NCBI RefSeq assembly: GCF_002105755.1
Contig: NZ_CP020821.1
Span: 2,170,001-2,234,000 of the forward strand
Length of the DNA stretch: 64,000 bases
Reading direction: 5' to 3'
Source: Mycobacterium colombiense CECT 3035
GTDB lineage: Bacteria; Actinomycetota; Actinomycetes; Mycobacteriales; Mycobacteriaceae
Numbering within the stretch: the stretch's first letter is position 1; each line of letters begins with the position of its first letter. The notes beneath the pieces were generated by a model. That model saw only the letters and a list, made by a program, of their open reading frames with translations, made no database searches and had not been told where the DNA came from. This document shows positions 305 to 54,806 of the stretch, one piece after another. Both the position numbers and the translations under genes were made by a program.

Positions 305-2701
305 CTACGCGTTGAGCACGCGTTCTCCGATGACTCGTTGTTCACGCAGCGAAGCAATCTCCTGGGCAGACAGGCCCAGTGCCCCAAGCACTTCGGAGTT
401 GTGCTGCCCGAGGGTCGGCGCCGCGGTCCGGTGCTGGTGCGCGGGTCCCGGCGAGATCCGGAATGGCCACCCGGGAAATCGATGTCGCCCAGTGATCGAA
501 TGGTCCAAATCCTGATAGAAGCCCCGCGCATCGAGCTGCTCGACGTCATACATCTGATCGGCCGGCAGGAGTCGTTCGGCCGGCACACCCCGCCGGCCGA
601 ACGTGGCGACGACCTCCGCCGCGGTTCGCCCGCACGTCCAACTCGTCAGAACCTCGTCGAAGTCGTCGTGATTCTCCCGGCGCGCTGCTGCGTTGGCAAA
701 TCTCGGATCGCCGCACAAGTCCGAGCGGTCGATGGCGTCCAATACCGCAAGCCAGTCCGCGTCATCACGCACGGAGAGCGCGACCCACTCGTCGGCATTG
801 CTCGTCGTGTAGACGCCCTGGGCGTACCAACGGTGACGATTTCCCTCGCGGGGCCGCACCGATCCCGTCAACGAGTATTCGATGACGGGTTCGGCGGTCA
901 CGGCCGCGCCGACCTCGATTTGCGCGACCTCGATCAGCTGCCCCGCACCGGTGGATCGCCGATGTTCGAGCGCAGCCAGCAGCGCCACACACGCGTGTAC
1001 GCCGGCGATCGGGTCGGCCGGCCCCTGCAGGTTGCAGGGCGGGCCTTCCGCATAACCGGTCGCGGCCGACATGCCTGATACCTGTTCGATATTCAGCGCC
1101 CAGCCCACGTAGTCACGCCACGGACCCTCCAGCCCGAATCCCGGCATCCGCACCATGATCACGCCGGGATTGAGGCGCACGATGGAGTCGTAGTCCAGCC
1201 CGAATTGTTCGACCACGCGCGGCGAGAAGTTCTCCACCACCACATCGGCTTCGGCGGCCAGACGCAACGCCAGCTCGCGGCCAGTCGCGGAGGTGAGGTC
1301 GAGCGTGATGTCGCGCTTGTTGAGATTGGTTCCCTGCCATAGTGGGCCCCGCTCGTACCAGTCGTCGCCCTCACGCAACAGCGAGCCCGAGTAACGATGT
1401 CCATCGGGTCGCTGGATGGACTCGACCTTGACCACGTCGGCGCCGAACGCACCGAGGTAGCACGTCAGATACGCGCCCGCCCAGAAAGTGCTCAAGTCGA
1501 ACACCTTCAAACCCGCGAACGGCAGCGAGATGTCGGGGACGTCGCCCGACCAGCGGGGTTCGCCGCGCTCGCTCCACGTCGGCTTCACATCCGTCCGGAC
1601 GGTGGGAGCGGGCAACGGCGGCGGGACCGGAGTCTTCGAAAGCCGGAACGGCGCACCTGGTCGCGTGAATCGCCATGCATCACAGGCCGACTCGATGAAG
1701 AATCCTCGCTCGGCATACTGGGGACAGCCCAGAATGGTGTCCCCCTCGGTGATCGGTGCCGCGGGGATTCGCATGGCTTGACTCAATTCGACCAGGTCAG
1801 CAACGGACATCGAGTCAAGGAAGGGCTGGGCCTTGGCGAAGAACTCGTCGCGCTCAGGGCCGCCGAGCATGATGGCGAGCTGATGGTCACCGAACTCGGG
1901 CAGCCCGACCATTGCGCACACGTCCAGCCAGTGCTGGCCGGTCAGGCAGTTGATCCCGATCCAACCGTCGGCGGCGTGCACGATACCCAGCATCGGCGCC
2001 GCTTTGGAATTTGTTGGCAGGCCGAGACTTTTCAGGCGTGCGGCCATCAGCATGGGGTAAGGCAGCGTCGACAACAGCGACTCGAACATCGACACGTCTA
2101 CCTCGACCGGCCCGTTCGTTTCTGCCGCAGCGACGCGGAGTGCGGTGAGCGCACCAAGGGCGGCGTAGCCGCCGGCGATGTATTCCGGGATGCGCGCACC
2201 CGCCTGAACGGGCGCCCGGCCGGGCTCGCGCACATTGACCCAACCCGCCGCCGCCTGCAGGGTCAGCGACGTCGTCACCCGGTCGCGCAGCGGCCCCTCC
2301 TGACCGAAGCTCGAGATGCGTACCACGACAAGGTTCGGGTTGATGCGGTCAAGAGTGTCCGTGTCCAGCCCCCACTGCCGGCGCTCGGGTGCGCCTGCGG
2401 GCAGGTCCTCGACGAGCACATCTGCCCGGGCGATGAGGTCGTGGGCCACGGCGATGTCATCTTGGTGTGCGAAACCGAGTGTGACGCCGCGCTTTCCAGC
2501 GTTGAGGTATTCAAACAGTCCGCTTCGGTCCGGATCAGGATGTCCAGACGGGAACGGACCCCAGCGCCGGAGTGGGTCGCCTGAGGGAGTCTCGATTTTG
2601 CACACATCGGCGCCGAGATCGACGAGTAGCTTCGTGCAATAGGGGCCCGCGATCTCAGAGGCCAGCTCGACGACTCGCAAGCCCGTCAGCGGCCGGTTCA
2701 C
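305..2701 (-). CDS. Tandem two-domain CaiB/BaiF-type (class III) CoA-transferase
   Basis: The 798-residue protein contains two complete CoA-transferase family III units in a row. Unit 1 starts RPLTGLRVVELASEIAGPY and unit 2, near residue 430, starts FAGLKVFDLSTFWAGAYLT. Single-unit members are about 400 residues, so this is a fused pair. It should move CoA between an acyl-CoA donor and an acid, without ATP. The catalytic Asp of formyl-CoA transferase-type enzymes appears to be Glu in both halves (VDVSMFES, IEVAQIEV). A GTG start is chosen because GTGA overlaps the stop of the upstream aldehyde dehydrogenase by 4 bases, a sign of translational coupling. Aldehyde oxidation followed by CoA activation is the likely joint job. 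The frame stays open further upstream, but that part is inside the dehydrogenase gene. Confidence 0.9.
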   Translation of the reverse strand: MNRPLTGLRVVELASEIAGPYCTKLLVDLGADVCKIETPSGDPLRRWGPFPSGHPDPDRSGLFEYLNAGKRGVTLGFAHQDDIAVAHDLIARADVLVEDLPAGAPERRQWGLDTDTLDRINPNLVVVRISSFGQEGPLRDRVTTSLTLQAAAGWVNVREPGRAPVQAGARIPEYIAGGYAALGALTALRVAAAETNGPVEVDVSMFESLLSTLPYPMLMAARLKSLGLPTNSKAAPMLGIVHAADGWIGINCLTGQHWLDVCAMVGLPEFGDHQLAIMLGGPERDEFFAKAQPFLDSMSVADLVELSQAMRIPAAPITEGDTILGCPQYAERGFFIESACDAWRFTRPGAPFRLSKTPVPPPLPAPTVRTDVKPTWSERGEPRWSGDVPDISLPFAGLKVFDLSTFWAGAYLTCYLGAFGADVVKVESIQRPDGHRYSGSLLREGDDWYERGPLWQGTNLNKRDITLDLTSATGRELALRLAAEADVVVENFSPRVVEQFGLDYDSIVRLNPGVIMVRMPGFGLEGPWRDYVGWALNIEQVSGMSAATGYAEGPPCNLQGPADPIAGVHACVALLAALEHRRSTGAGQLIEVAQIEVGAAVTAEPVIEYSLTGSVRPREGNRHRWYAQGVYTTSNADEWVALSVRDDADWLAVLDAIDRSDLCGDPRFANAAARRENHDDFDEVLTSWTCGRTAAEVVATFGRRGVPAERLLPADQMYDVEQLDARGFYQDLDHSITGRHRFPGWPFRISPGPAHQHRTAAPTLGQHNSEVLGALGLSAQEIASLREQRVIGERVLNA

Positions 2702-4158
2702 GCGGGTATCCCGATGGCCTTGGGTTCCATGTAGGCCCGCAGCCCCATCACACCGCCCTCCCGACCGATTCCGCTCTGCTTGAAGCCGCCGAACGGCGCG
2801 TCTCCGGGAATCGTGCCGTTGATCGAAACCTGTCCGGTCCTGATCCGGCGGGCGACCGCCACCGCGCGGTCGATATCGGTCCCCCACACCGCACCACCGA
2901 GCCCGTAGGACGAATTGTTGGCGATGGCCACGGCGTCGTCGTCGTCGCGATACCGCAACACCGTCAGCACTGGGCCGAACACCTCCTCCTGCGCGATGTG
3001 CGAATCGGCGGATGAATCGGTGAGTATCGTTGGCTCGAAGTAAAATCCGCTGCTCAGATCCTTCGGGCGGGCGCCGCCGGCCACCACGAGTGCACCGTCG
3101 GCTTCGGCGCGTTTGACGAATCCCTCGACACGGTCGAGGTGCTCGCGGCTGATCAACGGCCCCATGGTGACCGCCGGATCGACCGGATCGCCGATCACGA
3201 CCGCGCGGGACAGCTCCGCAAGCCGGCCCACCACCTGGTCGTGGAGCGTAGCGGGAAGCAGCAACCTGCTGTTGAGAATGCAGGCCTGACCCGCGTGCAT
3301 CGTGCAGCCCTCGAACAGCAGCCGCTCCAACAAATCGTCGCTTATGTCGACGTCGGGCAGCAGGATGGTCGCCGACTTGCCTCCGCACTCCAGCAGCACG
3401 CGCTTCATGGTGGTGGCCGCGCCCGCCATGACATCGCGGCCGACGGCAGAGCTGCCGGTGAAGCTCACCATGTCGACCCGGGGATCCAGGGTCAGGGTTC
3501 TGCTGGCCTCGACACCGGTCGGTGTGACCACGTTGACGACGCCGGCCGGGATGTCCGTGTCCTCGTCGATGATCCGCGCGAGGGCGAGTCCCGCCAGCGG
3601 CGTCAGCGGAGAAGGCTTGAGTACGAGCGTATTTCCCGCCGCGAGCGCTGCGCCCAGCTTCATGACGTTGAGCGTGTGCGGAAAGTTCCACGGCGTCATC
3701 GCCGCCACCACACCGAGTGGTTCATAGCGCAACAGCGTCGTGCCCGCCGCGCCCCACGCATCCATCGGTGCCTCGGCCGGCTCCGTGGCGAGCTCGGCGG
3801 CATGACCAACCATGAAGGCGGGACCATCGACGTGAATCAGCCGCTCATTTGCTGAACAACCCCATTCGGCCTGCGCCAGGGCATAGATCTCCTCGCTCCT
3901 GGCCAGCAACGCATCGCTGAGCTGTTGCAGGCAGCGGGCCCGTTCCGCGGGCGCGGCCGCCGGCCACGGCCCCGTGTCGAACGCCGACCTGGCGGCTGCG
4001 ATCGCCTGCTGGACCTGAGCCACGCTCGCATCGGGCGCCGTTTCGATCACCGTCTCAGTGGCGGGGTTGATGACGTCGTAGCGCCCACTGTCCGGCGCGA
4101 TCCATTGGCCGTCGATGTAGTGCGCGTAGCTGTCAAGAAGGGAACGCGACCCAGCCAT
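2698..4158 (-). CDS. NAD(P)-dependent aldehyde dehydrogenase
   Basis: The protein is 486 residues, the usual length for the ALDH superfamily. It shows the PWNFP cofactor-site motif (157-160), the general-base Glu257 in LLECGGKS, the FTGS cofactor loop (near 233-236), and catalytic Cys293 in HAGQACILNSR. The C-terminal APFGGFKQSGIGRE motif is also intact, so it should be active, oxidising an aldehyde to a carboxylic acid. Its stop overlaps the GTG of the CoA-transferase, and it is divergent from the P450-led operon with a 234-base promoter region between them. This suggests co-regulation and that it oxidises an aldehyde formed during the same catabolism. Confidence 0.93.
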   Translation of the reverse strand: MAGSRSLLDSYAHYIDGQWIAPDSGRYDVINPATETVIETAPDASVAQVQQAIAAARSAFDTGPWPAAAPAERARCLQQLSDALLARSEEIYALAQAEWGCSANERLIHVDGPAFMVGHAAELATEPAEAPMDAWGAAGTTLLRYEPLGVVAAMTPWNFPHTLNVMKLGAALAAGNTLVLKPSPLTPLAGLALARIIDEDTDIPAGVVNVVTPTGVEASRTLTLDPRVDMVSFTGSSAVGRDVMAGAATTMKRVLLECGGKSATILLPDVDISDDLLERLLFEGCTMHAGQACILNSRLLLPATLHDQVVGRLAELSRAVVIGDPVDPAVTMGPLISREHLDRVEGFVKRAEADGALVVAGGARPKDLSSGFYFEPTILTDSSADSHIAQEEVFGPVLTVLRYRDDDDAVAIANNSSYGLGGAVWGTDIDRAVAVARRIRTGQVSINGTIPGDAPFGGFKQSGIGREGGVMGLRAYMEPKAIGIPA

Positions 4159-4334
4159 CCTGTTTGCCTTCCTGACCGCTGATCGTCGAGCGGCGCATTC
4201 GACGCCTCGGAAGAACTTACATACTCAACCCGTGTGTACACGCTCGGCCGCAACGCCGTCAACGGCTAACACGCTTAATTTTCCGCTAGATATGCCCTGA
4301 TTGACAGATGATCGGGCTTTACTGTAGACAGCTT

Positions 4335-4350
4335 GAGAACGGACATTCTT
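4335..4350. promoter_or_regulatory. Operator-like inverted repeat GAGAAC-N4-ATTCTT in divergent promoter
   Basis: GAGAAC GGAC ATTCTT is a 6-4-6 inverted repeat with one mismatch. It lies between a plausible -35 (TTGAGA, 4333-4338) and -10 (AATATG, 4355-4360) element, 43 bases before the P450 start. A repressor bound here would block polymerase. The same arrangement recurs at 14975, 20901 and 21115, so it is probably a shared operator. The binding protein is not identifiable from sequence; the TetR at 10527 is the nearest candidate. The rest of the 4159-4392 gap shows no gene. Confidence 0.6.
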
Positions 4351-4392
4351 AGGCAATATGTCTGACGAGCTCAGCGTCAAGGAAGGCATGCT

Positions 4393-5586
4393 GTGCCCAC
4401 TACCACTGTTCCCTTGCACTCACCGGACTTTTACGCCGGCGACCCCTACCCGATCTACCGAGAACTCCGCAACACGACACCCGTCGTGTGGAATGACGTC
4501 ACGAACTTCTGGGCCTTATTGAAGTACGAGGATGTCCGCTACGTCTCGGGCCACCCGCTGGCCTTCTCGTCGACGAAGGGCATCACCATCCCGGATCCCA
4601 CCCAGCCTGAACCCGTTCAGGAGGGGAACCTGATTTTCACCGATCCCCCCCGTCACCGGCAGCTTCGCAAGCTCATCAACTCCGGCTTCACCCGACGCCA
4701 GGTGCAGTTGCTCGAGCCCAAAGTGCGCCAGATCGTGAAGGGCATCGTCGACGGTGTCGACCCGTCGCGGGAGTACGAATTCGCCGAGGAGATCGCCGCA
4801 CCTCTTCCCACCCGGATGATCGCGGAGATGCTCGGCGCCCCGCCCGAAGACTGGGAGCAGTTCCGAGCGTGGTCGGACGCGGCGGTCGGCACCGCCGACC
4901 CCGACATCGAACTGGACTCGATCGTCGCGCTCGGTGAGCTCTACGAGTACTTCACCAAGCTCATCGCCGCGCGGCGGTCGGGCGAGGTCAGCGGGCAGGA
5001 CGATCTGCTGAGCATCCTGGCCGCGGCCGAGGTGGATGGCGAGCGGCTATCCGATGCGGATCTGCTCAACTTCTCCTTCTTGCTACTGGTCGCCGGCAAC
5101 GAAACCACCCGCAACCTCATCGCATTGGGCACGTTGGCCCTGATCGACCACCCCGACCAGTTCGCGCTGCTGCGATCGAACCCGTCCCTGCTACCGAGTG
5201 CGGTCGAGGAGATGCTCAGATACACCAGCCCGGTTACCCACATGGCCCGCCGCGCCACCGAGAACATCGAGATCCGCGGCCAGCAGATCAAGGCCGGCGA
5301 CACCGTGGTCATGCTGTACGGCGCCGCCAATCGCGACGAGGAGATCTTCGGGTCCACCAGCGAAGAGTTCGACATCACCCGTAATCCGAACCCGCACATA
5401 GCATTCGGGGCAGGCGAACACGCTTGTCTGGGTGCGCAGCTCGCCCGCCTGGAAGCCAGAGTGATGTTCGAGGTGCTCCTGGGCGCCTACCCCACGATCG
5501 AGCTCACCGGCGACGTGTCCCGACTTCGCGCCACCATGGTGCCCGGGGTGAAGCGGATGCCAATCCGATTGGGGACGGGTACCTGA
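4393..5586 (+). CDS. Cytochrome P450, first gene of igr-like operon
   Basis: The 397-residue bacterial P450 has the I-helix oxygen-activation motif AGNETT (234-239), the ExxR pair in EEMLR (Glu273/Arg276), and the haem loop FGAGEHACLG with Cys345 as the thiolate ligand. No membrane anchor is present, so it is soluble and needs ferredoxin and a reductase. None is seen nearby. The GTG start is preceded by AAGGAAGG with 6-base spacing. Its TGA shares one base with the ATG of the following acyl-CoA dehydrogenase. In the M. tuberculosis igr operon the equivalent position is held by cyp125, which oxidises the sterol side-chain terminus. A similar first oxidation is inferred here, but the subfamily cannot be assigned. 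Confidence 0.93.
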   Translation: MPTTTVPLHSPDFYAGDPYPIYRELRNTTPVVWNDVTNFWALLKYEDVRYVSGHPLAFSSTKGITIPDPTQPEPVQEGNLIFTDPPRHRQLRKLINSGFTRRQVQLLEPKVRQIVKGIVDGVDPSREYEFAEEIAAPLPTRMIAEMLGAPPEDWEQFRAWSDAAVGTADPDIELDSIVALGELYEYFTKLIAARRSGEVSGQDDLLSILAAAEVDGERLSDADLLNFSFLLLVAGNETTRNLIALGTLALIDHPDQFALLRSNPSLLPSAVEEMLRYTSPVTHMARRATENIEIRGQQIKAGDTVVMLYGAANRDEEIFGSTSEEFDITRNPNPHIAFGAGEHACLGAQLARLEARVMFEVLLGAYPTIELTGDVSRLRATMVPGVKRMPIRLGTGT

Positions 5587-6782
5587 TGGACTTCGACTAC
5601 ACACCCGAGCAGGAACAGCTCCGAAAGGACTACCGCACCCGCCTCGAGGCGGTGATGACCCCGGAGCGCCGCGCTGCCGTGGCCAACCTCACCGAGGGCG
5701 GCGCTGCGATGACCGAGTGCAGGCGCGCGCTCGGCGAAGCCGGGCTGCTCGGCGTCGCCTGGCCGGTTGAATACGGTGGTGGCGGCCTGACCGCCCTGGA
5801 GCAGTACATCTTCTCGGAGGAAGCGCGCAGGGTCAACGCACCGTTGCCGTTTGTCACCCTGAACACCGTCGGGCCCACCCTCATTCAATACGGAACCGAC
5901 GAACAGAAGGCCAAGTTCCTCCCGGCGATACTCAAAGGCACGGTCGATTTCGCGATCGGCTACTCGGAGCCCGGCGCCGGCAGCGACCTCGCGTCGCTGC
6001 GTACCACCGCGGTACGCGATGGCGACGAATTCGTCATCAACGGTTCCAAGATGTTCACCAGCGGCGCGGAGTTCGCCGACTATATCTGGCTGGCGGCGCG
6101 GACCGATCCAACCGTCAAGAAACACAAGGGGATCACCCTGTTCATCGTCCCGACGGACTCACCCGGTTTCTCTTGGAAGCCGCTGCATACCATGCCGGGG
6201 GTTTCCACGTACTACACGTTCTACGACGACGTCCGGGTACCCGAGAGCGCCATCGTGCTCGGCGAAAACCAGGGCTGGACACTCGTGACGAACCAGCTCA
6301 ACCTCGAACGCGCCGCACTCGGCAATCTCGGCGCCCTGGAGCCGCTGTTCGCCAAGACGCTCAAATGGGCATCGACGACACCGCTCGACGACGGCATGGT
6401 CATCGATCAGCCCTGGGTGCAGCAGGCCCTGGCCCGAGTCGAGGCGCAAGTCGCGGCCTACCGGCTGCTGAACCTGCGCGTCAACGCCACCATGAGCTCT
6501 GGCGCCCTCGGGATGGGCGAGGCCTCTGCGGCAAAGGTATTCGGCACCGAGCTCACCCAGCAGGTCGCTCGCGAACTGCTGGAAGTGGTGGGACAGGCGG
6601 GTGTGCGCAAGGACTCAGCGGCCCCGCTCAAAGGAGAGCTGGAGAGCGCATACCGCCTGGCGGTCATCAACACGTTCGGCGGCGGAGCCAACGAGCTTCA
6701 ACGCGACATCATCGCCATGGCCGGTCTCGGGATGCCGCGCGCTCCCCGGGACATGCGGGCCGCATCGGAGAAAGGAGCCTGA
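5586..6782 (+). CDS. Acyl-CoA dehydrogenase (FadE family), subunit 1
   Basis: The 398-residue protein starts MDFDYTPEQEQLRKDYRTRL. It shows the acyl-CoA dehydrogenase flavin segment GYSEPGAGSDLASL and the C-terminal FGGGANELQRDIIA motif, which in this family contacts FAD and closes the subunit. Length and features resemble the longer partner of the alpha2beta2 dehydrogenases, such as ChsE1-ChsE2, that act on steroid-CoA substrates. A second, shorter FadE lies at 7773. The two are probably one heterotetramer; this is inferred from context. The start overlaps the P450 stop by one base. It would introduce the C=C bond that the MaoC proteins later hydrate. Confidence 0.92.
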   Translation: MDFDYTPEQEQLRKDYRTRLEAVMTPERRAAVANLTEGGAAMTECRRALGEAGLLGVAWPVEYGGGGLTALEQYIFSEEARRVNAPLPFVTLNTVGPTLIQYGTDEQKAKFLPAILKGTVDFAIGYSEPGAGSDLASLRTTAVRDGDEFVINGSKMFTSGAEFADYIWLAARTDPTVKKHKGITLFIVPTDSPGFSWKPLHTMPGVSTYYTFYDDVRVPESAIVLGENQGWTLVTNQLNLERAALGNLGALEPLFAKTLKWASTTPLDDGMVIDQPWVQQALARVEAQVAAYRLLNLRVNATMSSGALGMGEASAAKVFGTELTQQVARELLEVVGQAGVRKDSAAPLKGELESAYRLAVINTFGGGANELQRDIIAMAGLGMPRAPRDMRAASEKGA

Positions 6783-6787
6783 GACCG

Positions 6788-7339
6788 ATGACGGAGACAA
6801 CGAAGGACGACCTGCGCGAGCGCCTCGACGCGCTCATCGGGACGCCCACCGACGGAGTCGGCAGACCCTCCCGCGCGCCTGATCCGGTGAATGCGGCGAT
6901 GATCCGGCACTGGGCGTACGCGTTGGACGACATGAATCCCGCCTACCTCGATGCCGAGTTCGCGGAGAACTCCCGCTACGGTGCCCTGGTTTCCCCGCCG
7001 GTGATGCTCCAGAGCTGGACGATGCCTCCGCCCAAGCTCGCCGGCATCCATGAACGCGGTGGCGTGCCGATCGAAATCAAGAAGAACCCGCTGCAATTCC
7101 TGTCCGACGCGGGCTACACGGGCATCATCGCGACGAACTCGGAGTTCGAGATCGAACGTTATCCGCGCGTCGGCGACGAGATCACCGGTGAGACGGTTTT
7201 CGACTCGATCTCCGACGAAAAGACGACGGCGATGGGCAAAGGATTCTTCGTCACGTGGGTGACCACCTACCGCGATCAGAACGGGGACGTCATCGGCCGC
7301 CAATGGTTCCGCACGCTGCGATTCAAGACGGGAAGCTGA
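6788..7339 (+). CDS. MaoC-like N-terminal (FAS1-type) domain protein, ChsH2-N-like
   Basis: The 183-residue protein has the FAS1/MaoC N-terminal domain look: IRHWAYALDDMNPAYLD near residues 38-54, a SPPVMLQSW segment, and a second beta-sheet half ending EFEIERYPRVGDEITGETV. In active hydratases the motif is D-x-N-P-x-H; here the last position is Tyr, so the catalytic His seems absent and this may be the partner subunit of the MaoC at 8888. In M. tuberculosis this domain and the DUF35 domain are fused in ChsH2. Here they are separate genes whose stop and start share one base (7339). Confidence 0.85.
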   Translation: MTETTKDDLRERLDALIGTPTDGVGRPSRAPDPVNAAMIRHWAYALDDMNPAYLDAEFAENSRYGALVSPPVMLQSWTMPPPKLAGIHERGGVPIEIKKNPLQFLSDAGYTGIIATNSEFEIERYPRVGDEITGETVFDSISDEKTTAMGKGFFVTWVTTYRDQNGDVIGRQWFRTLRFKTGS

Positions 7340-7752
7340 TGGCCACCCGACTTGCCCCGTCGATCAGTCCGGACACCGAATTCTTCTGGTCGGGCCTCAA
7401 GGACGGCAAGCTTCTGATCCAGCGATGCGCCGACTGCAACACGTTGCGGGTGCCACCCCGTCCGATGTGCGGCAATTGCCAGTCGCTCAACTGGGATTCC
7501 ATCGAATCCACCGGCCGGGGAACGGTTTACAGCTTCGTGATGCCGCAGTACCCGCCGCTGCCCTTCCTCCAATACCCCTACGTGGTGGCCCTGATCGAGC
7601 TCGAGGAGGGTGTGCGCATCGTGTCGAACATGTGCGACATCGAGCCCGCCGCCATCGAGGTCGGGCTGCCCGTCGAGGTCTTCTACGAGAAGTTCCAAGC
7701 CATCCCGAGCGGCGACGAGCTGGTGCTGCACCAGTTCCGGCCCGCACGCTGA
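7339..7752 (+). CDS. DUF35 zinc-ribbon/OB-fold protein (ChsH2 C-domain-like)
   Basis: The 137-residue protein has an N-terminal rubredoxin-type zinc ribbon with two Cys pairs, RCADCN and MCGNCQ, about residues 34-55. An OB-fold follows, running from GTVYSFVMPQYPPLPF to the C-terminus. In steroid degradation the DUF35 domain of ChsH2 binds the thiolase-fold aldolase Ltp2 and is needed for its activity. An Ltp2-like gene lies two genes downstream, so the same complex is inferred here. TGATG couples translation to the preceding MaoC-like domain, and GGAAGC just upstream serves as ribosome binding site. The fission of a normally fused gene is the noteworthy point. Confidence 0.9.
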   Translation: MATRLAPSISPDTEFFWSGLKDGKLLIQRCADCNTLRVPPRPMCGNCQSLNWDSIESTGRGTVYSFVMPQYPPLPFLQYPYVVALIELEEGVRIVSNMCDIEPAAIEVGLPVEVFYEKFQAIPSGDELVLHQFRPAR

Positions 7753-7772
7753 ACACGAGGCACCAGGCGAAC

Positions 7773-8891
7773 ATGGACTTTTCCTTCACCGAAGAACAAG
7801 AAACCGTCGGCAAGGTAGCCCGGCAGCTCTTCGAGCACCGCGCCACGCCCGAACACCTGACCGACCTGGAATCAGGCGAGCACCGCTACGACCGTGCGCT
7901 GTGGCGTGAGCTGGCGTCCTCGGACTTGCTGGGCATCGCGCTGCCCGAAGCTGTCGGCGGCAGCGGTGGCAGCTTTCTCGACCTCGGCGTGCTACTCGCC
8001 GAAGTCGGCTGGAGCGTCGCGCCGGTCCCGGTCTACGCGACCCTCGTACTAGGCGCGGATACGATTGCGCGGCACGGTGACTCGAGTATTCAGCAGCGCT
8101 ACCTTCCGAGGGTGGTGGACGGCGACGCGATCCTGACCGCCGCACTCGCCGAACCCGGAAATTCCGATCCGGCCGCGCCGCGCACCATCGCACGTGCTGA
8201 TGGCGACGCCTGGAACTTGACCGGCGCGAAGGAACTCGTGCCCGCGGCGCAGCTCGCCGAAGCCATCGTGGTGTCGGCACAGGCGGATGACGGCCCGGGC
8301 CTCTACGTCGTCGATACGGCAAGCGGAGACAACAATGGCGTCGTCGTCTCGTCGGTAAGCACCACCAACGGCGAACCCTATGCCGACGTCGAATTCGCCG
8401 GCGCTATCGGCCACCGCCTCACCGGAACCGGCGGGCCGGACGCCGTCAGCTCGCTGTACACCCGCGCGCTGCTCGGACTGTGCGCCATGCAGGTCGGCGT
8501 GACCGAGCGGGCGTTGAAGATCGCCGCCACCTATACCAGTCAACGCGAGCAGTTCGGCAGACCGGTCGGCTCATTTCAGGCTGTGCAGCAGCGGCTGGCC
8601 GATGCGTTCATCGACGTCGAGGCGATACGGTGGACCACCTGGCACGCGGCCTGGCTGATCGCGGAAGCCCGGCCCGCGGCCCGCGAGGCCGCCATCGCCA
8701 AATTCTGGGCCGCCGAGGCCGGAGCGCGGGTCGTCGCGTCGGCCCAACAGGTCCACGGCGGTATGGGCATCGACGTCACCTATCCGCTTCACCGCTATTT
8801 CCTGTGGGCCAAGCAGATTGAGCTGTCGCTGGGATCGGCCCCTCAACAACTCGCCCGGCTCGGCGCAGCATACTCGGAAGGAAACAAATGA
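7773..8891 (+). CDS. Acyl-CoA dehydrogenase (FadE family), subunit 2
   Basis: The 372-residue FadE begins MDFSFTEEQETVGKVARQL. The C-terminal half carries TSQREQFGRPVGSFQAVQ, which holds the FAD-binding Arg/Gln region, and QVHGGMGIDVTYPLHRYF, the usual family signature. The middle flavin loop is weaker (ALAEPGNSDP), as seen in the shorter subunits of heterotetrameric FadE enzymes. It is the likely partner of the 5586 product. The gene begins 20 bases after the DUF35 gene, and its stop overlaps the next start by 4 bases (ATGA). The order FadE, ChsH2 parts, FadE differs from M. tuberculosis, where the two FadE genes are adjacent. Confidence 0.92.
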   Translation: MDFSFTEEQETVGKVARQLFEHRATPEHLTDLESGEHRYDRALWRELASSDLLGIALPEAVGGSGGSFLDLGVLLAEVGWSVAPVPVYATLVLGADTIARHGDSSIQQRYLPRVVDGDAILTAALAEPGNSDPAAPRTIARADGDAWNLTGAKELVPAAQLAEAIVVSAQADDGPGLYVVDTASGDNNGVVVSSVSTTNGEPYADVEFAGAIGHRLTGTGGPDAVSSLYTRALLGLCAMQVGVTERALKIAATYTSQREQFGRPVGSFQAVQQRLADAFIDVEAIRWTTWHAAWLIAEARPAAREAAIAKFWAAEAGARVVASAQQVHGGMGIDVTYPLHRYFLWAKQIELSLGSAPQQLARLGAAYSEGNK

Positions 8892-9340
8892 CCTCCACCG
8901 TCGACCGCACCACCACGCTCACTTGGAACTCCATCGTCGTGGGCGACGAAGTCACCCCGATGGACGTTCCGGTGACCACCACACTGATCGTCGCCGGTGC
9001 CATCGCATCCCGTGACTACATGCCCGTACACCATGATCGCGATTTTGCGAACTCCCAGGGATCCAAGGACATTTTCTTGAATATCCTGACGACCAACGGA
9101 CTTTGCGTGAAGTTCCTCCATGACTGGGCCGGCCCCGAGGCGATGATCAAGAAGCTGTCGATTCGTCTCGGTGTTCCGGCATACCCCAACGACCCGATGC
9201 GATTCACGGGGTCCGTCACGGACAAATCGTCGGCCGACGGCGAAGGGTTCATCGAGGTCACCTTCAAGGGCACCAACAGCCTCGGCGACCACGTCTCCGG
9301 GACCGCGGTGCTCAGTCTGCTCGAAGGCGTGGATGCATGA
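8888..9340 (+). CDS. MaoC-like enoyl-CoA hydratase, ChsH1-like
   Basis: The 150-residue single hot-dog protein carries RDYMPVHHDRDFA. This keeps the Asp-x4-His spacing of R-specific hydratases, so it appears to be the catalytic partner for the 6788 product, whose His is replaced. Downstream strands include LSIRLGVPAYPNDPMRFTG. It is expected to hydrate the double bond made by the two FadE subunits, giving the 3-hydroxyacyl-CoA substrate for the aldolase. ATGA overlaps couple it to genes on both sides. Size and position match chsH1 of the igr operon; identity of function is inferred. Confidence 0.88.
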   Translation: MTSTVDRTTTLTWNSIVVGDEVTPMDVPVTTTLIVAGAIASRDYMPVHHDRDFANSQGSKDIFLNILTTNGLCVKFLHDWAGPEAMIKKLSIRLGVPAYPNDPMRFTGSVTDKSSADGEGFIEVTFKGTNSLGDHVSGTAVLSLLEGVDA

Positions 9341-10506
9341 GCGACGGTATCGGCGGCAAGGCCGCCCTCGTCGGGATCGGCCAAACCGAGTTCTCCAAGG
9401 AATCGGGCCGCAGTGAGATGCAGCTGGCCTGCGAGGCAGTCAAGGCCGCCATCGACGACGCCGGCCTTCGTCCCGCCGACATCGACGGCATGGTCACCTT
9501 CAGCGTCGACGACAACGAGGAGATCGAGGTCGCACGCAATGTCGGGATAAGGGATCTGAGCTTCTTCACCAGGGTCCCGCACGGCGGTGGTGCGGCCGCG
9601 GGAACGGTGATGCAGGCCGCGATGGCGGTCGCGACGGGCGTGGCAGAAGCGGTGGTGTGCTATCGCGCGTTCAACGAGCGTTCCGGTTTCCGCTTCGGCG
9701 GCGCCGGCCGCCAGGCGGGCGTGACGCCGCTATGGATGGCGCCCTACGCGCCGTTTGGATTTATGACGCCGGCCGCCTGGGTCGCGTTGCACGCCCAGCG
9801 CTACATGACCACCTACGGCGTCACAAATGCCGATTTCGGCAAGATCTCGGTCATCGACCGCAAGCATGCCGCGAACAATCCCGACGCCTGGTTCTACCAG
9901 AAGCCGATAACCATTGAGCAGCATCAACAATCGCGGTGGATCATCGAGCCTGTGCTGAGATTGCTCGACTGCTGTCAAGAAAGCGACGGGGGCGTTGCCA
10001 TGGTGGTGACGAGCGTCGAGCGAGCGCGCGACCTTGCCAAGCCGCCCGCCGTCATTGCGGCGGCCGCGCAAGGCGCCGCCTACGACGGCGAGGTGATGAC
10101 CAGCTATTACCGAGAGGAGATCACCGGCCTGCCGGAAATGGGCGTGGTCGGCGACAAGCTGTGGCGGGATTCGGGCCTTAAGCCGCAAGACATTTCGACG
10201 GCCTTCCTCTACGACCATTTCACGCCGTTCGTCTTCACCCAACTCGAGGAACTCGGCTTCTGCGGTCGCGGGGAAGCCAAGGACTTCGTCTCGGTCGAGG
10301 AATTGTCGCTGGGCGGCAGGATGCCGATCAACACCAACGGTGGACTGCTCGGCGAGGCCTACATCCACGGCATGAACGGCATCACCGAGGGTGTCCGCCA
10401 GGTGCGCGGCACGTCCCACAATCAGGTGGACGACGTCGAACACGTGCTTGTCACGTCGGGTACCGGTGTTCCGACCAGCGGGCTGATCCTCGCGCCGGAT
10501 CACTGA
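9337..10506 (+). CDS. Ltp2-like thiolase-fold protein (probable side-chain retro-aldolase)
   Basis: The 389-residue thiolase-superfamily protein starts with GKAALVGIGQTEFSKESG. The usual nucleophilic-Cys loop reads VPHGGGAAAGTVMQAA, without Cys, and the later loop reads NTNGGLLGEAYIHGMNG, without the GHP histidine. Both losses are typical of Ltp2, which cleaves a steroid 17-hydroxy side-chain CoA ester by retro-aldol chemistry with active-site tyrosines. Tyr292 (FLYDHF) and Tyr342 (GEAYIHG) lie where I recall those tyrosines. Together with the separate DUF35 gene at 7339 it probably forms an aldolase that releases a short acyl-CoA from a ring product. It overlaps the MaoC stop by ATGA. Confidence 0.88.
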   Translation: MSDGIGGKAALVGIGQTEFSKESGRSEMQLACEAVKAAIDDAGLRPADIDGMVTFSVDDNEEIEVARNVGIRDLSFFTRVPHGGGAAAGTVMQAAMAVATGVAEAVVCYRAFNERSGFRFGGAGRQAGVTPLWMAPYAPFGFMTPAAWVALHAQRYMTTYGVTNADFGKISVIDRKHAANNPDAWFYQKPITIEQHQQSRWIIEPVLRLLDCCQESDGGVAMVVTSVERARDLAKPPAVIAAAAQGAAYDGEVMTSYYREEITGLPEMGVVGDKLWRDSGLKPQDISTAFLYDHFTPFVFTQLEELGFCGRGEAKDFVSVEELSLGGRMPINTNGGLLGEAYIHGMNGITEGVRQVRGTSHNQVDDVEHVLVTSGTGVPTSGLILAPDH

Positions 10507-10526: not shown

Positions 10527-11165
10527 ATGACGCACGCGACGGCTATCGACACCCGCGAGGTTCTCATCTCGGCCGCTTTCGCCTGCTTCCGAACGCAGGG
10601 GTTGCGGAAGACGACGATCGTCGACATCGCACGTGTCGCAGACGTGTCCCGGAGCACCTTCTACGAGTACTTCCGGGACAAGGAGACGATTGTCGAGGCG
10701 TGCGCGGAGGCGGCGTCTCAGGGCTTCTATCGCAGGCTGGCCAAGGCGATCGACCGCCACGGCGGTAGCACCCTGGAGGAAAAACTGGTTCGGGCAGGTG
10801 TTTTCGTGACTCAAGCCCGGCGCGTGGTGGAGCCCGAGTCATATTTCGACCAAGACGAAGTCAGCCTGATGTTGACCAAGAATGCGTCGACCCTGCTACG
10901 GGAATGCAGCGAGTTCCTCGCACCGTACGTCTCGGCCGCTCGATTGACGGGTGAGGTCCGCAATGACCTCGATATCCGGTCTGCAACCGAGTGGTTTGCG
11001 CGAATGTTGTTCTCGCTGTTCACCACTCCGTCGCCCTACCTCGACATGGGCGACGACCAAGTGGTCGCGGACTTCGTGCGGCCCTACGTTGTGCGCGGCT
11101 TCCTGGATGCCGGGCGTCGGAGCACCATGCGGGCCAACTTGGCCGGCGCGGGAGGATCAACCTAG
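10527..11165 (+). CDS. TetR-family transcriptional regulator
   Basis: The 212-residue protein has an N-terminal helix-turn-helix (about residues 10-55) reading DIARVADVSRSTFYEYFRDKETI, a textbook TetR recognition helix and following tyrosine-phenylalanine segment. The C-terminal ligand-binding half is unrelated to anything I can name. It lies 20 bases after the Ltp2-like gene on the same strand, so it is probably the last gene of the operon. That makes it the first candidate for the GAGAAY-N4-RTTCTC operators found across 4-21 kb. It likely represses and is released by a pathway CoA ester; this is inference from context. Confidence 0.9.
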   Translation: MTHATAIDTREVLISAAFACFRTQGLRKTTIVDIARVADVSRSTFYEYFRDKETIVEACAEAASQGFYRRLAKAIDRHGGSTLEEKLVRAGVFVTQARRVVEPESYFDQDEVSLMLTKNASTLLRECSEFLAPYVSAARLTGEVRNDLDIRSATEWFARMLFSLFTTPSPYLDMGDDQVVADFVRPYVVRGFLDAGRRSTMRANLAGAGGST

Positions 11166-11783: not shown

Positions 11784-13016
11784 TCAGTCCGCCTTGCGAA
11801 CCGGCACATTGGACCACCCACACACGTTGGACATCGCCACCCGGCGCAACCCGCTGCGATCGACTTCGTACTCGGGCAGCAGATCGAGCAGCGCCTCCAG
11901 CGCGATGCGGCTCTCCATCCTTGCGAGCGCCGCCCCCAAGCAGCTGTGCACGCCGTACCCGAACGCGAGATTGAAGCCCATCTTGCGGTCCCTGTCGATA
12001 TCCAACCGGTCGGGATCGGGGAACATCCGCTCATCGCGCGTCGCCGAGCCGGTGACCAGCAAGACGGCGCTTCCTTCGGGAATTACTCTGCCGTGCAACA
12101 TCACATCGCGGGTGGCGGTGCGGACCTGGTACTGCGACGGTGCCTCGTAACGCAACAATTCTTCGACCGCCGCCGGAATCTTGCGGCGGTCCTCCTTCAG
12201 TTTTCGCCACTGGTCCGGGAAGTCGGCGAAGGCGACCATGGCGTTGCCGATGAGCTTGGTGACGGTCTCTGCGCCGGCCCCCCCGAGCATGGTCGCGAAT
12301 CCGGTGATGTCCACATCGGTGAGCTTCTCCACCTGTCCGTCGCGCTCGATCTCGGTCTCGATGAGCCGGCTGATCATGTCGTCACGAGGTTCTGCGCGGC
12401 GCTGCTGCACCAGGTTGTAGTAGTAGATACCGGTTTTCGTCGATGCTTCGAAACCTTCTGCGGTGGTGGCGATCTGACCCGGACGACGTTCGAGCAGCAG
12501 ATCGAGCCAGCGCCGAATCTGTTCGCGGTCCTCCTTCGGCACTCCCAACATGGTGGTAATGACCTCGTTCGGGAACAGGGCCGAGAAGTCGGCCACCACG
12601 TCGAAGGACGTCGGGTCGAGCGCATCGATCCGCTCGTAAACCTTCTCGCGCACCATGTCTTCCAGCGCCGCGATGGCGCGCGGGGTGAAGACGTTGCTCA
12701 CCAGCCTGCGCATCTTTTGGTGTTCGGGGGGATCCATCGAGATGATCACCTTGGGCACCGGCAGCGCGTCGTCGTGCGCCTTGACCATGTCGAGCGTGGC
12801 CCCTTTGGCCGACGAGTAGGTTTCGTGATCCTTGGTGGCGGGCGCTACGTCCTCATAACGGGTCAGGGCCCAGAAGTCCCACTTTGCGTTGTAATAGACG
12901 GGGGCCGAGTCGCGCAGGCGCCGGTAGGTGTCGAACGCCCCGTTGAAGAAGTCGTCCGAAAACGGGTCAAAGTCGGCAGGGTCATCAGCCGTGATCTGTG
13001 CCGGAGTTGCACTCAT
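11784..13016 (-). CDS. Cytochrome P450 (second)
   Basis: The 410-residue soluble P450 has the I-helix GGAGAETVT (near 246-254), ExxR in EELLRYEAPSQ, and haem loop FGYGVHSCLG with Cys359. The residue before the usual Thr pair is Glu-Thr (AET), so the proton-relay Thr is present. It overlaps the stop of the upstream CoA-transferase by 4 bases (ATGA), so the two are co-translated. Acyl-CoA activation and hydroxylation are probably successive steps on one compound. It is more like the P450 at 19658 than that at 4393 (both share the HSCLGAALAR / HFCLGAALAR style). Confidence 0.93.
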   Translation of the reverse strand: MSATPAQITADDPADFDPFSDDFFNGAFDTYRRLRDSAPVYYNAKWDFWALTRYEDVAPATKDHETYSSAKGATLDMVKAHDDALPVPKVIISMDPPEHQKMRRLVSNVFTPRAIAALEDMVREKVYERIDALDPTSFDVVADFSALFPNEVITTMLGVPKEDREQIRRWLDLLLERRPGQIATTAEGFEASTKTGIYYYNLVQQRRAEPRDDMISRLIETEIERDGQVEKLTDVDITGFATMLGGAGAETVTKLIGNAMVAFADFPDQWRKLKEDRRKIPAAVEELLRYEAPSQYQVRTATRDVMLHGRVIPEGSAVLLVTGSATRDERMFPDPDRLDIDRDRKMGFNLAFGYGVHSCLGAALARMESRIALEALLDLLPEYEVDRSGLRRVAMSNVCGWSNVPVRKAD

Positions 13017-14245
13017 AGGATCGCTCCGGATTCCTTGTAGTTCGCGATGGTGTCCCAGTCCAAACCTGCCTCCATCAGTACTTCTTCGGTGTGCTGGCCG
13101 TGTTCGGGTGCGCCCGGCGGGACCACGGCCCGTTCGTCGAACTGGACGGGGTTGGTGGGCAGCGAATACGGCGAACCATTCATCGTCGTGGTGCTCGCGA
13201 CATAGCCGTTGGCGGTCACCGCCGGGTCATGGCACAGCTCTCCCGGTGTCTGCACCACCCCCCAGGCGCCGGAAATGCCGGCCAGCTGTTCGCGCCATTC
13301 GTCCAGAGTGCGTCTCGCAAACACCTCGTCCATGAGTGCGATCAGTTCCGTCCGATTGGCGAATCGCGATGCCGGATCGGCGAATCGCTCGTCACCGATC
13401 AATTCGGGGAGACCGATGGCACGCATCGCTTCCGCGTAGAACTTGTCGAGTTGCAACATCATCAGCTGGACGTAGCGGTTGTCCTTGGTGCGGTAGGTCC
13501 CCACCAATGGATTGGGTGCGTCGGCATGGCCGAACTTCGGGATCGAGCTACCACCGTGGATCTGGCTCACTGCGACATCGGGACTGAGGTTCCACGCCGC
13601 GAGCCCGAGCAGGGAGACATCCACCACCGACCCGTGGCCGGTCGTCGCCTTCTTGTACAACGCGGCCGCGATCCCGCCCGCGATCGCCATGCCTCCGAGC
13701 AGATCTCCGAACGCCGGGCGCGACCGCACCAACTCGTCTGCGCCTTCGGTGAGCACGGCGGCGATGCCGCCGCGGGCCCAATAGGAGACGCCGTCATAGC
13801 CAGGTTTGTCCGAATCGGGACCCTTCGGGCCGTGGCCTGACCCGCGCACGTAGACGATGCCGGGATTCGCGGCTCTGATGTCGTCGACGTCGATGCCCAT
13901 CTTCTTGCGGCGACTCGGCAGATAACTGGTGAGGAAAACGTCGCACGTAGCGGCGAGTTTACGGATGACATCCTGACCGTCGGAAGTGCTCAGATCGACG
14001 CCAATCGACTTCTTCCCCCGATTCGGGATCTCGATCATGTAGTTGACCGTGCCGCCGCCCTCATCCACGATGCCCATCGTGACGAGGCCACGCTGAGGGT
14101 CACCGCCCTCGCGCGGCTCGACCTTGATAACTTCGGCGCCCCACTCCGCCAGGACGGCGCCGGCCGACGGTACGAAGGTCCATGCGGCAACCTCCAACAC
14201 GCGGACACCATTGAGCACTTTGTCTACCGAAATGGTGGCCTCCAT
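13013..14245 (-). CDS. CaiB/BaiF-type (class III) CoA-transferase, single unit
   Basis: The 410-residue protein is the standard length for this family. The start LNGVRVLEVAAWTFVPSAGAVLAEWGAEVIKVEP is the conserved Rossmann-type N-terminus. The segment aligned with the catalytic Asp loop reads VVDVSLLGLAAW, where Gly stands where Asp (or Glu) is expected; activity is therefore uncertain or uses another residue. Other family features (NRGKKSIGVDLST, GPKGPDSDKPGYD) are intact. It is first in a three-gene operon with a P450 and an NTF2-like gene. An operator-like half site lies about 70 bases upstream. Confidence 0.88.
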   Translation of the reverse strand: MEATISVDKVLNGVRVLEVAAWTFVPSAGAVLAEWGAEVIKVEPREGGDPQRGLVTMGIVDEGGGTVNYMIEIPNRGKKSIGVDLSTSDGQDVIRKLAATCDVFLTSYLPSRRKKMGIDVDDIRAANPGIVYVRGSGHGPKGPDSDKPGYDGVSYWARGGIAAVLTEGADELVRSRPAFGDLLGGMAIAGGIAAALYKKATTGHGSVVDVSLLGLAAWNLSPDVAVSQIHGGSSIPKFGHADAPNPLVGTYRTKDNRYVQLMMLQLDKFYAEAMRAIGLPELIGDERFADPASRFANRTELIALMDEVFARRTLDEWREQLAGISGAWGVVQTPGELCHDPAVTANGYVASTTTMNGSPYSLPTNPVQFDERAVVPPGAPEHGQHTEEVLMEAGLDWDTIANYKESGAIL

Positions 14246-14378: not shown

Positions 14379-14948
14379 CTATGGGCGCGTCGACAGACGT
14401 CCCGGAAGCCCAGGGTCGCCGTCGGCCCAAAAGGCCCGCCAGGTGGGCATGCGATGGGGCATGGCCGCAGGCAACGTGATGTCGGTCGGCCAGCGCATGA
14501 ACTCCGGTCCGGGGCGCTCGGTCACATCGACTGAGTACCAAGGGTGCTCCCGCCGTCTGACGAAACGCCACTGGCCGTCCCTACGCTCGTACACGTCGTC
14601 ATAGCGCATCGTGATCACGAACCACCCGTCGCCGTCCTCGTGTTCGGCTCGGCAATACACAGATCCGATGGCGTGGTCGTCGTCGACGAAGTCGAATTGA
14701 TGGCCGCAGATCAGGTGGATGCTGCGGTAAAAACGCCGAAGTACCCGGTCGTACCAACGCCTCAACGCATCCCTGCCGCGGCCCTCGGCTCCGGCGTCGA
14801 CATCGTCGACGAACAGCGCCACCAGCTCACCGAGATCGCGCGCGTCGAGCGCCATGGCGTAGCGGCTGGGCAGCTGACTGATTGCGAGGCTCGATTCCAG
14901 CCGGTCCAACCGATCGTCGCCGGCCCAACGATCCGCTTCGGTGACCAT
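14379..14948 (-). CDS. SnoaL/NTF2-like protein (ring-hydroxylating dioxygenase beta-type fold)
   Basis: The 189-residue protein has the pattern LAISQLPSRYAMALDARDLGELVALFVDDVDAG followed by GRDALRRWYDRVLR, HLICGHQFDFVDDDHAIGSVYCRAEHE and a C-terminal WRFVRRREHPWYSV. This is the common SnoaL_4-like layout of small isomerases, cyclases and hydratases. No catalytic residues are assigned. An ATG at 14948 is preferred to an in-frame TTG at 14972, because the latter falls in the operator. It is divergent from the acyl-CoA synthetase at 15021 and shares its operator. Confidence 0.78.
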   Translation of the reverse strand: MVTEADRWAGDDRLDRLESSLAISQLPSRYAMALDARDLGELVALFVDDVDAGAEGRGRDALRRWYDRVLRRFYRSIHLICGHQFDFVDDDHAIGSVYCRAEHEDGDGWFVITMRYDDVYERRDGQWRFVRRREHPWYSVDVTERPGPEFMRWPTDITLPAAMPHRMPTWRAFWADGDPGLPGRLSTRP

Positions 14949-14970
14949 GGCGAAATTGTAAGCCGTAGAC

Positions 14971-14994
14971 AAACGAGAACCTATGTTCTCGTTT
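14971..14994. promoter_or_regulatory. Perfect 10-4-10 palindromic operator between NTF2-like and FadD genes
   Basis: AAACGAGAAC CTAT GTTCTCGTTT is a perfect inverted repeat with 10-base arms, centred in the 72-base gap between divergent genes. It is the best copy of the GAGAAY-N4-RTTCTC motif seen also at 4335, 20901 and 21115. A TetR-type repressor dimer is the likely binder. The core AAC-N4-GTT resembles the KstR motif (AAC-N2-GTT) but is two bases wider, so it is probably not KstR. Confidence 0.75.
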
Positions 14995-15020
14995 TGCGCA
15001 AATCCTACTATCCTGCGGTC

Positions 15021-46406: not shown

Positions 46407-47146
46407 GGCACAAACCCCACGTTCGACACCTTCACCGTGTCACCCACTTTCTGTACATCGATTCGCATTCGCCAATGCCGAGGCGACTGATCGGCGGCAC
46501 CGGCGTTGGACGTGTCCACCGCCACCGCCACAAGGACCCGGGCCGAATCCCCGCTGATCGACTCCACGCCGGCCTCGGTGATGCTGCCTTGGGTCTTCGC
46601 CTGCGCTTGTTTGACCACATCGATGAAAGCCGGTGCGCGCTTCGAGAAGTCGTCGTAGAACTGCCCGGTAGCCGAGTCCAGGATGCGCTGAACGTCGGCG
46701 TTGGCCTGGGTGTAATTGATGGTCGTCAGATTCAGCGCGCCTTGCTTACCCACCGCTAGGAATCTGTTGCGCTGCAGTTCCGCCTGACGGCCCTGGTAGG
46801 TGTCGTAACCGAGCCAACCGGCCAAACCGCCAAGAGCCAGGATGGCGCCCAATCCCACCGCGACTGCGAGCCGAAAGCCCGACGTTCCGATACGCGCCGA
46901 AGCCTCGTCGCGCCTATCGACGTCGCTGTCGGCGTCGTCGTCTTCAGCCGTCGGCTCGGCGTCGGCGTCTTCAGTCGTCAGCTCCGCGTCGACGGCTGCT
47001 GCGGTATCAGCGTCGTCCATGGCCTCACGCTCCCCCGGCGCATCGTCCGGTTCGCTGGATTCCTTCACGGATCCAGTGACCGTTCGCGTCGAGGCACCGT
47101 TCGGCCCGTCTACTGTCGAGTCGGCGGCATCAGCATCGTCTGCCAT
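46403..47146 (-). CDS. Mce-associated membrane protein (first)
   Basis: The 247-residue protein has an N-terminal cytosolic stretch of Asp/Glu/Ala (DADAADSTVDGP, DADTAAAVDAELTTEDADAE), a transmembrane helix LAVAVGLGAILALGGLAGWLG (near 95-115) and a C-terminal domain with SATGQFYDDFSKRAPAFIDVVKQAQAKTQG, as in Mce-associated proteins. The ATG at 47146 lies within the end of mceF (37-base overlap). Members stabilise or assist the Mce complex at the cell surface. Confidence 0.85.
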   Translation of the reverse strand: MADDADAADSTVDGPNGASTRTVTGSVKESSEPDDAPGEREAMDDADTAAAVDAELTTEDADAEPTAEDDDADSDVDRRDEASARIGTSGFRLAVAVGLGAILALGGLAGWLGYDTYQGRQAELQRNRFLAVGKQGALNLTTINYTQANADVQRILDSATGQFYDDFSKRAPAFIDVVKQAQAKTQGSITEAGVESISGDSARVLVAVAVDTSNAGAADQSPRHWRMRIDVQKVGDTVKVSNVGFVP

Positions 47147-48564: not shown

Positions 48565-48565
48565 T

Positions 48566-53453: not shown

Positions 53454-53494
53454 GGATTCCTTCGGTTAGAAGCGGTTACGGGGCGGTGAGATTT

Positions 53495-54802: not shown

Positions 54803-54806
54803 GACG

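Follow-up and report, generated by a model that had tools for sequence, protein, structure and literature searches.

The window analysed here is a 64,000-nucleotide stretch of the Mycobacterium colombiense CECT 3035 genome (contig NZ_CP020821.1, positions 2,170,001 to 2,234,000 of the forward strand). It holds an operon with the gene types of the cholesterol side-chain (igr) operon of M. tuberculosis, conserved as part of a larger unit that forms a lineage of its own. Gene starts and stops were taken from a codon-usage gene caller; longest-open-frame calls are misleading in this GC-rich genome. The genes of the unit are the following.

305-2701, minus strand: two-domain class III CoA-transferase of 798 amino acids, the proposed acyl-CoA-forming enzyme (Pfam CoA_transf_3, two stretches)
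2698-4158, minus strand: aldehyde dehydrogenase, divergent from the operon (Aldedh; best NCBIfam match TIGR04284, the Rv0768 type, under its cut-off)
4393-5586, plus strand: P450 (Pfam p450; nearest solved relatives CYP125MRCA, CYP124 and CYP142; 35-37% identical to the igr CYP125 of two mycobacterial loci)
5586-6782, plus strand: ChsE2-like acyl-CoA dehydrogenase, catalytic subunit (Acyl-CoA_dh; 4x28_A, 390 bits)
6788-7339, plus strand: MaoC protein like the ChsH2 N-domain, non-catalytic half with Tyr for His (FAS1_DH_region; 4wnb and 4w78, 84 bits)
7339-7752, plus strand: DUF35 protein, the ChsH2 C-domain as a separate gene (zf-ChsH2/OB_ChsH2_C; 6ok1_B, 124 bits)
7773-8891, plus strand: ChsE1-like acyl-CoA dehydrogenase, partner subunit (Acyl-CoA_dh; 6wy8_A, 282 bits; 4x28_D, 241 bits)
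8888-9340, plus strand: ChsH1-like MaoC hydratase, catalytic half (MaoC_dehydratas; 4wnb_B, 116 bits)
9337-10506, plus strand: Ltp2-like retro-aldolase (Thiolase_C_1; 6ok1_A, 576 bits)
10527-11165, plus strand: TetR regulator, the proposed local repressor (TetR_N)

From the P450 to the TetR gene, the successive junctions are an overlap of 1 base, a gap of 5, an overlap of 1, a gap of 20, two overlaps of 4 and a gap of 20. The coordinates therefore bear out the overlaps of 1-4 bases and gaps of up to 20 that the original prediction had described for an operon spanning 4393-10506. The operon is real, but these limits were too narrow: the TetR gene said to end it is present and lies beyond 10506, and the conserved unit also takes in 305-4158 on the other strand. 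This unit consists of the seven catabolic genes, the TetR gene, the divergent aldehyde dehydrogenase and the two-domain CoA-transferase.

The predicted igr gene types (P450, two FadE, ChsH2 parts, ChsH1 and Ltp2) agree with the family and solved-structure matches. The strongest solved-structure match among the operon proteins is that of the Ltp to Ltp2 of Thermomonospora curvata (6ok1), and the protein also lies above the NF005892 cut-off (656 against 469 bits). Both FadE genes are present and can now be given roles, the first being ChsE2-like, with Tcur3483 (376 bits) scoring close behind 4x28_A, and the second ChsE1-like, with Tcur3481 (282 bits) above 4x28_D. The two MaoC proteins correspond to the ChsH2 and ChsH1 halves of a single solved hydratase (4wnb, 4w78). 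For the P450, pairwise scores alone give 346 bits to CYP125MRCA, 270 to CYP124, 250 to CYP142 and 219 to M. tuberculosis CYP125.

Catalytic residues and conservation of the unit

In alignment, the ChsE2-like protein carries a Glu in LNLERA opposite LNNERV of igr, and the ChsE1-like protein has no Glu at this site, which we take to be the exact position of the catalytic Glu in the ChsE subunit. One ChsE subunit alone carries this residue according to PMC8399759. The ChsH1-like MaoC has the Asp/His dyad and the ChsH2N-like MaoC a Tyr in place of His, the division described for the ChsH1-ChsH2 hydratase in PMC11321319. The DUF35 protein retains four zinc-ribbon cysteines that are absent from the three igr loci aligned.

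The Ltp has YDHF at residues 292-295 and, in alignment, a second catalytic Tyr in GEAYIHG, as in Ltp2-type C3 aldolases; PMC12329534 describes YDHF with a second Tyr for the C3 aldolases and YDCY with Gln for the C5-stage aldolase Sal. A C5 aldolase of the Sal/HBC type is ruled out by these C3-type residues. The proposal that the module serves a different side chain is not borne out by this signature: the enzyme probably removes the propionyl unit that Ltp2 removes, and it is the ring part or the source compound that would differ. Two further motif observations concern this family. Directly before the second catalytic Tyr, the clade of the window's Ltp (9337-10506) has PINTNGG where the aligned igr and cas rows (see below) have N-T-H-G-G, the Asn being common to a related set, L182; the Ltp of L182 (L182:6800-7960) has YDPF in place of the Ltp2-type YDHF.

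Conservation was followed in 58 named loci, chosen (by patterns) solely for the similarity of their MaoC to that of the window and hence close relatives only. They comprise 49 type A loci (MaoC 75-97% identical to the window's, including the Williamsia locus L088 and the M. vanbaalenii locus L080, from an environmental fast grower) and nine type B loci (64-68%). All eight operon genes lie in the same order on a single strand in 52 of the 58, with one gene matched in two pieces in two of these (MaoC in L083, Ltp in L094), which argues that the arrangement is not due to chance. The six exceptions are two reduced type B copies (L089, L092), three loci that reach a contig end (L078, L081, L095) and L063, which has no TetR match. 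All 49 type A loci and seven of the nine type B loci have a full-length CoA-transferase; for a full-length aldehyde dehydrogenase the counts are 47 and nine, and the TetR gene is matched in 46 (44 full length) and seven (three full length), respectively. The ratio of nonsynonymous to synonymous substitution rates (dN/dS), computed for the window against six type A loci for each gene, is 0.04-0.18, and all eight genes are under purifying selection.

Across 148 genomes of the genus, the MaoC is found as type A in 32 (76-100%) and as type B in 46 (63-68%), with both types in 12 and at least one in 66; below these two types, the next MaoC matches among those listed are at 39% or less. In 301 genomes of the family, the sole genome outside the genus with an Ltp at least 80% identical is that of Williamsia (G190). 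One named protein of Nocardia vaccinii is 73% identical to the window MaoC.

Gene order, phylogeny and known relatives

The operon had been described as rearranged from igr, which the distribution of gene orders does not support. The window order, chsE2-chsH2-chsE1-chsH1-ltp2 with ChsH2 split into MaoC and DUF35 genes, is shared by casLMNOP, the cholate C3 side-chain set of Rhodococcus jostii RHA1, as seen in a putative cas region with which the locus tags given in PMC8399759 agree. It is also found in Novosphingobium ES2-1 and in seven other actinobacterial sets (L181, L182, L184-L186, L188, L189), whereas the igr order (chsE1-chsE2-chsH2-chsH1-ltp2) was seen only in igr-clade loci, 10 mycobacterial and nine further ones plus L165 and L166. 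The Vibrio locus L162 is arranged differently again. The Rhodococcus sets L163 and L194 likewise have MaoC and DUF35 as separate genes. In an actinobacterium of another family (L181:8813-14893), a split MaoC pair 57-58% identical to the window's lies divergent from a fused cas-order set and is a possible relative of the split form.

Phylogenetic trees were built from a subset of the loci: besides the window and the Williamsia locus, they include 3-7 other type A and 3-6 type B loci. In the single-protein trees of Ltp, ChsH1 and ChsH2N, the rows of the unit form one clade with support in the Shimodaira-Hasegawa-like approximate likelihood ratio test (SH-aLRT) of 100, 94 and 99, respectively. 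In the five-protein concatenated trees, this clade (100/100) stands apart from igr and casLMNOP. One of these trees contains three actinobacterial clades: igr, which takes in Nocardia and Nonomuraea (100/100), cas, which includes the putative RHA1 set (100/100), and the window unit. The window clade joins three cas-order sets of other actinobacterial genomes weakly, at 91/79 in this tree, where rows L163 and L194 fill less than half of the columns, and at 90/96 in a second tree that held a wrongly cut row (L185, one open frame for two genes), for which the first used a shortened stretch. A recent copy of the mycobacterial igr goes against the tree and is rejected by the approximately unbiased (AU) test (p 0.003, at a cost of 404.6 log units), as is a union with the cas clade (p 7e-8, 105.5 log units).

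The unit is a separate old lineage and not orthologous igr: it has its own clade in the trees, and the genome has a separate true igr, the combination by which the original prediction had proposed to recognise an igr-like set distinct from igr. The true operon lies at about C1:3511970-3517925 and comprises cyp125, chsE1, an interrupted chsE2, a fused ChsH2 (320 amino acids), ChsH1 and Ltp2; the window proteins are 68% (Ltp2) and 37% (ChsH2) identical to it. Its chsE2 (fadE29; L040:8501-9660, C1:3514500-3515659) is matched in two pieces in different frames, as an interrupted gene or through a sequencing error. If the interruption is real, the window unit might be the only intact source of a ChsE2-type protein remaining.

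Compared with igr (cyp125-chsE1-chsE2-chsH2-chsH1-ltp2), the unit has the same five enzyme families, a P450 at the head and the same predicted dehydrogenation, hydration and retro-aldol steps; the igr enzymes act on cholesterol-derived 3-oxo-pregnene-20-carboxyl-CoA. It differs in gene order, in the split ChsH2 with its zinc-ribbon cysteines, in its clade, in having its own TetR, aldehyde dehydrogenase and CoA-transferase, and in having no full KstR-type motif. The casLMNOP set has the same enzymes and order, but ChsH2 is fused, no P450 belongs to the set as described and activation is by a CoA ligase, CasI (PMC8399759); a shared clade is rejected. The plasmid set of Novosphingobium ES2-1 has the interleaved order of acyl-CoA dehydrogenase, ChsH2, acyl-CoA dehydrogenase, ChsH1 and Ltp2; unlike the window unit, it and ORF40-44 of Comamonas testosteroni TA441 are proteobacterial with a fused ChsH2, and the ES2-1 Ltp is 62-63% identical. 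The MaoC and DUF35 domains of the TA441 set are described as functional when expressed apart (PMC12502768).

Two systems are more distant. In ipfDE, the ibuprofen retro-aldolase, an Ltp likewise lies beside a separate OB-fold (DUF35-type) gene, and propionyl-CoA is released from ring-CH(CH3)-CO-CoA as described in PMC9195938. Its Ltp is 51% identical to the window's (plasmid Ltp matches at this level, which we infer to be ipfD), and it acts on a dioxygenase-made diol with no ChsE or ChsH steps. The HBC operon atf1-chsH4-chsE6-kstR3 of M. neoaurum has a stand-alone DUF35 gene and a TetR regulator (PMC10398937), but by that description it is set apart, acting at the C22-C24 stage with no ChsH1/H2 pair or P450 among its four genes.

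Regulation, further copies and the surrounding island

A candidate regulatory site lies between the divergent genes.

4340-4364, no strand assigned: putative operator, the palindrome CGGACA-N13-TGTCTG before the P450 gene, marked by positional conservation

A site of the form NNNACA-N13-TGTNNN is present upstream of the P450 gene in 56 of the 56 loci that have this gene. The arms form six pairs in 28 sites, five in 22 and four in six, three of the pairs being set by the form itself; the five-pair sites of L074 and L077 lie elsewhere, at -160. In Williamsia the two arms have changed in step, to CGTACA and TGTACG. The window's own site has five pairs, and the window contains no site of this form with a perfect six. 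The TetR encoded by the adjacent gene would bind this palindrome and probably represses the unit there, which would then answer to an inducer other than the KstR ligand. A second palindrome, GTGTACAC, was seen at 4234-4241 of the window near the aldehyde dehydrogenase start and recurs in 13 of 15 aligned promoters of types A and B. The full KstR-type motif, whose pattern we take to be TnnAACnnGTTnnA, has no match in the window; the same pattern occurs at two places at the start of cyp125 in this genome's igr operon, and it also precedes cyp125 in the three further igr loci examined.

The genome also carries a reduced type B copy from C1:2808541 (L039:6542-9808), with MaoC, DUF35, MaoC, ltp and TetR genes; it lacks the P450 and the dehydrogenases, and its ltp frame is interrupted. 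Two other loci share this reduced form: in L092 the ltp frame is open, and in L089 the contig ends within ltp. The open ltp of L092 suggests that hydratase and aldolase alone may be kept for a reason. A further igr-like array (L041:3667-10205) contains genes for two acyl-CoA dehydrogenase-like and two MaoC-like proteins, an Ltp, a DUF35-like and an acyl-CoA synthetase-like protein, with roles assigned partly by eye; its Ltp is 30-32% identical to the window's.

Three genes beside the operon are shared among the 49 type A loci and were seen in none of the nine type B loci, as counted in flanks of 10 kb or less; a recount without L039-L041 gave unchanged numbers.

11784-13016, minus strand: P450, in 41 type A loci
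13013-14245, minus strand: CoA-transferase, in 35 type A loci
14673-16631, plus strand: acyl-CoA synthetase, in 33 type A loci

More widely, about 39 kb (L043:1365 to window position 34188) has genes in common with the Williamsia region. These include two amidohydrolases (80 and 81% identical), a periplasmic-binding protein (73%), an NDMA-dependent alcohol dehydrogenase (69%), a luciferase-type monooxygenase (68%), dehydrogenases, a P450 and a CoA-transferase, and an MCE operon lies near both regions. The stretches shared with Williamsia G190:C3 are L043:1365-6001 and window positions 1-34188 and 47110-56395. No steroid-ring gene was recognised among the 36 of 62 called window proteins scanned against family libraries. 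The shared gene content suggests a catabolic island for a lipid-like compound.

Proposed function and significance

With moderate confidence, we read the unit as an old lineage, the third, of the ChsE1E2-ChsH1H2-Ltp2 side-chain machine, equipped with activation enzymes and a regulator of its own. The P450 may hydroxylate a terminal methyl of a ring-attached, branched C3 group, the aldehyde dehydrogenase may oxidise the product to the acid and the two-domain CoA-transferase may form the CoA ester. ChsE1E2 would then desaturate the bond that joins the alpha carbon to the ring carbon, the ChsH1/ChsH2N pair would hydrate at the ring carbon, and the Ltp2-like enzyme with the separate DUF35 protein would release propionyl-CoA and leave a ring ketone. 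These ChsE, ChsH and Ltp steps are predicted from strong homology and retained catalytic residues. The substrate is probably other than cholesterol itself, such as another isoprenoid or a C22-type steroid bearing ring-CH(CH3)-R.

Several points weigh against this reading. Class III CoA-transferases usually shift CoA between small acids. The P450 is close to sterol and methyl-branched-lipid hydroxylases, which makes a sterol substrate possible. In the concatenated tree without the cas-order rows, the unit is sister to the igr clade, and a deep sister relation to igr, tested as a union with the whole igr clade, is not rejected (AU p 0.127, 12.1 log units). The trees carry long-branch warnings for Vibrio, Novosphingobium, Nonomuraea, L163, L188 and L194, and the groups put to the AU test were named after a tree had been seen. 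The palindrome pattern is not enriched genome-wide (3 strand matches against 4 for the reversed control), occurring at one other place in the genome and the control at as many; identification of the operator by pattern alone is thereby ruled out, and only its position is conserved. Bare AACNNGTT cores number 14 in the window, four of them within 3.9-11.3 kb, and none has both flanks. Finally, phytosterol-induced genes without KstR sites exist according to PMC6593523, so a missing motif does not exclude sterols.

A narrower version of the proposed function, which we put forward tentatively, is a stand-alone cassette that would act on a non-steroid isoprenoid, such as a terpene or hopanoid, and turn its ring-attached isopropyl (or 2-substituted propyl) group into a ring ketone and propionyl-CoA. 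All genes of the unit would then be used in one short path with no extra beta-oxidation cycles, unlike igr, and the complete type B copies without type A neighbours fit such a cassette.

It is rather unlikely that the genes are back-up isozymes working alongside the igr enzymes in the final round of side-chain degradation of cholesterol or phytosterols, although the same reactions are predicted and the Ltp shares 66-69% identity with the Ltp2 proteins of three igr-clade loci. With a second set present, it could be understood why an ltp2 deletion in M. neoaurum ATCC 25795 reportedly still made androstenedione (cited in PMC12409849), and sterol-induced genes without KstR sites are known (PMC6593523); however, in the strain used in PMC12409849 itself the deletion blocked androstenedione. 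The window moreover has no full KstR-type motif, the old divergence has been maintained in parallel, and the unit has its own P450, aldehyde dehydrogenase and CoA-transferase and occurs as type A or B in 66 of 148 genus genomes. Salvage of C22 steroids such as 4-HBC leaking from sterol breakdown, with the aldehyde dehydrogenase and CoA-transferase reactivating a C22 alcohol or aldehyde, is more doubtful still: M. neoaurum makes such products (PMC10398937) and the gene set suits a C22 aldehyde or acid entering at ChsE1E2, but the P450 would be required only for a methyl or alcohol start. A mycobacterial counterpart of casLMNOP for the C3 stage of bile acids is highly improbable despite the same gene order, given the rejected union with cas, an Ltp closer to igr-clade Ltp2 (66-69% identical) than to the putative CasP of RHA1 (60%), a ChsH2 that is split in the window and fused in cas, and a P450 at the head of a unit whose bile-acid substrates would already have a carboxyl.

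We recognised no description of a paralogous igr set in mycobacteria among the papers listed in searches of open-access literature, which is no proof of absence. Side-chain breakdown in mycobacteria is usually read through a single igr operon under KstR. An older, apparently separately controlled machine in 66 of the 148 sampled genus genomes would be mislabelled as cholesterol catabolism by similarity-based annotation. It could also bear on the conflicting reports on ltp2 deletion in M. neoaurum production strains, if those strains carry the unit, and its genes make the breakdown of other branched ring lipids accessible to direct testing.

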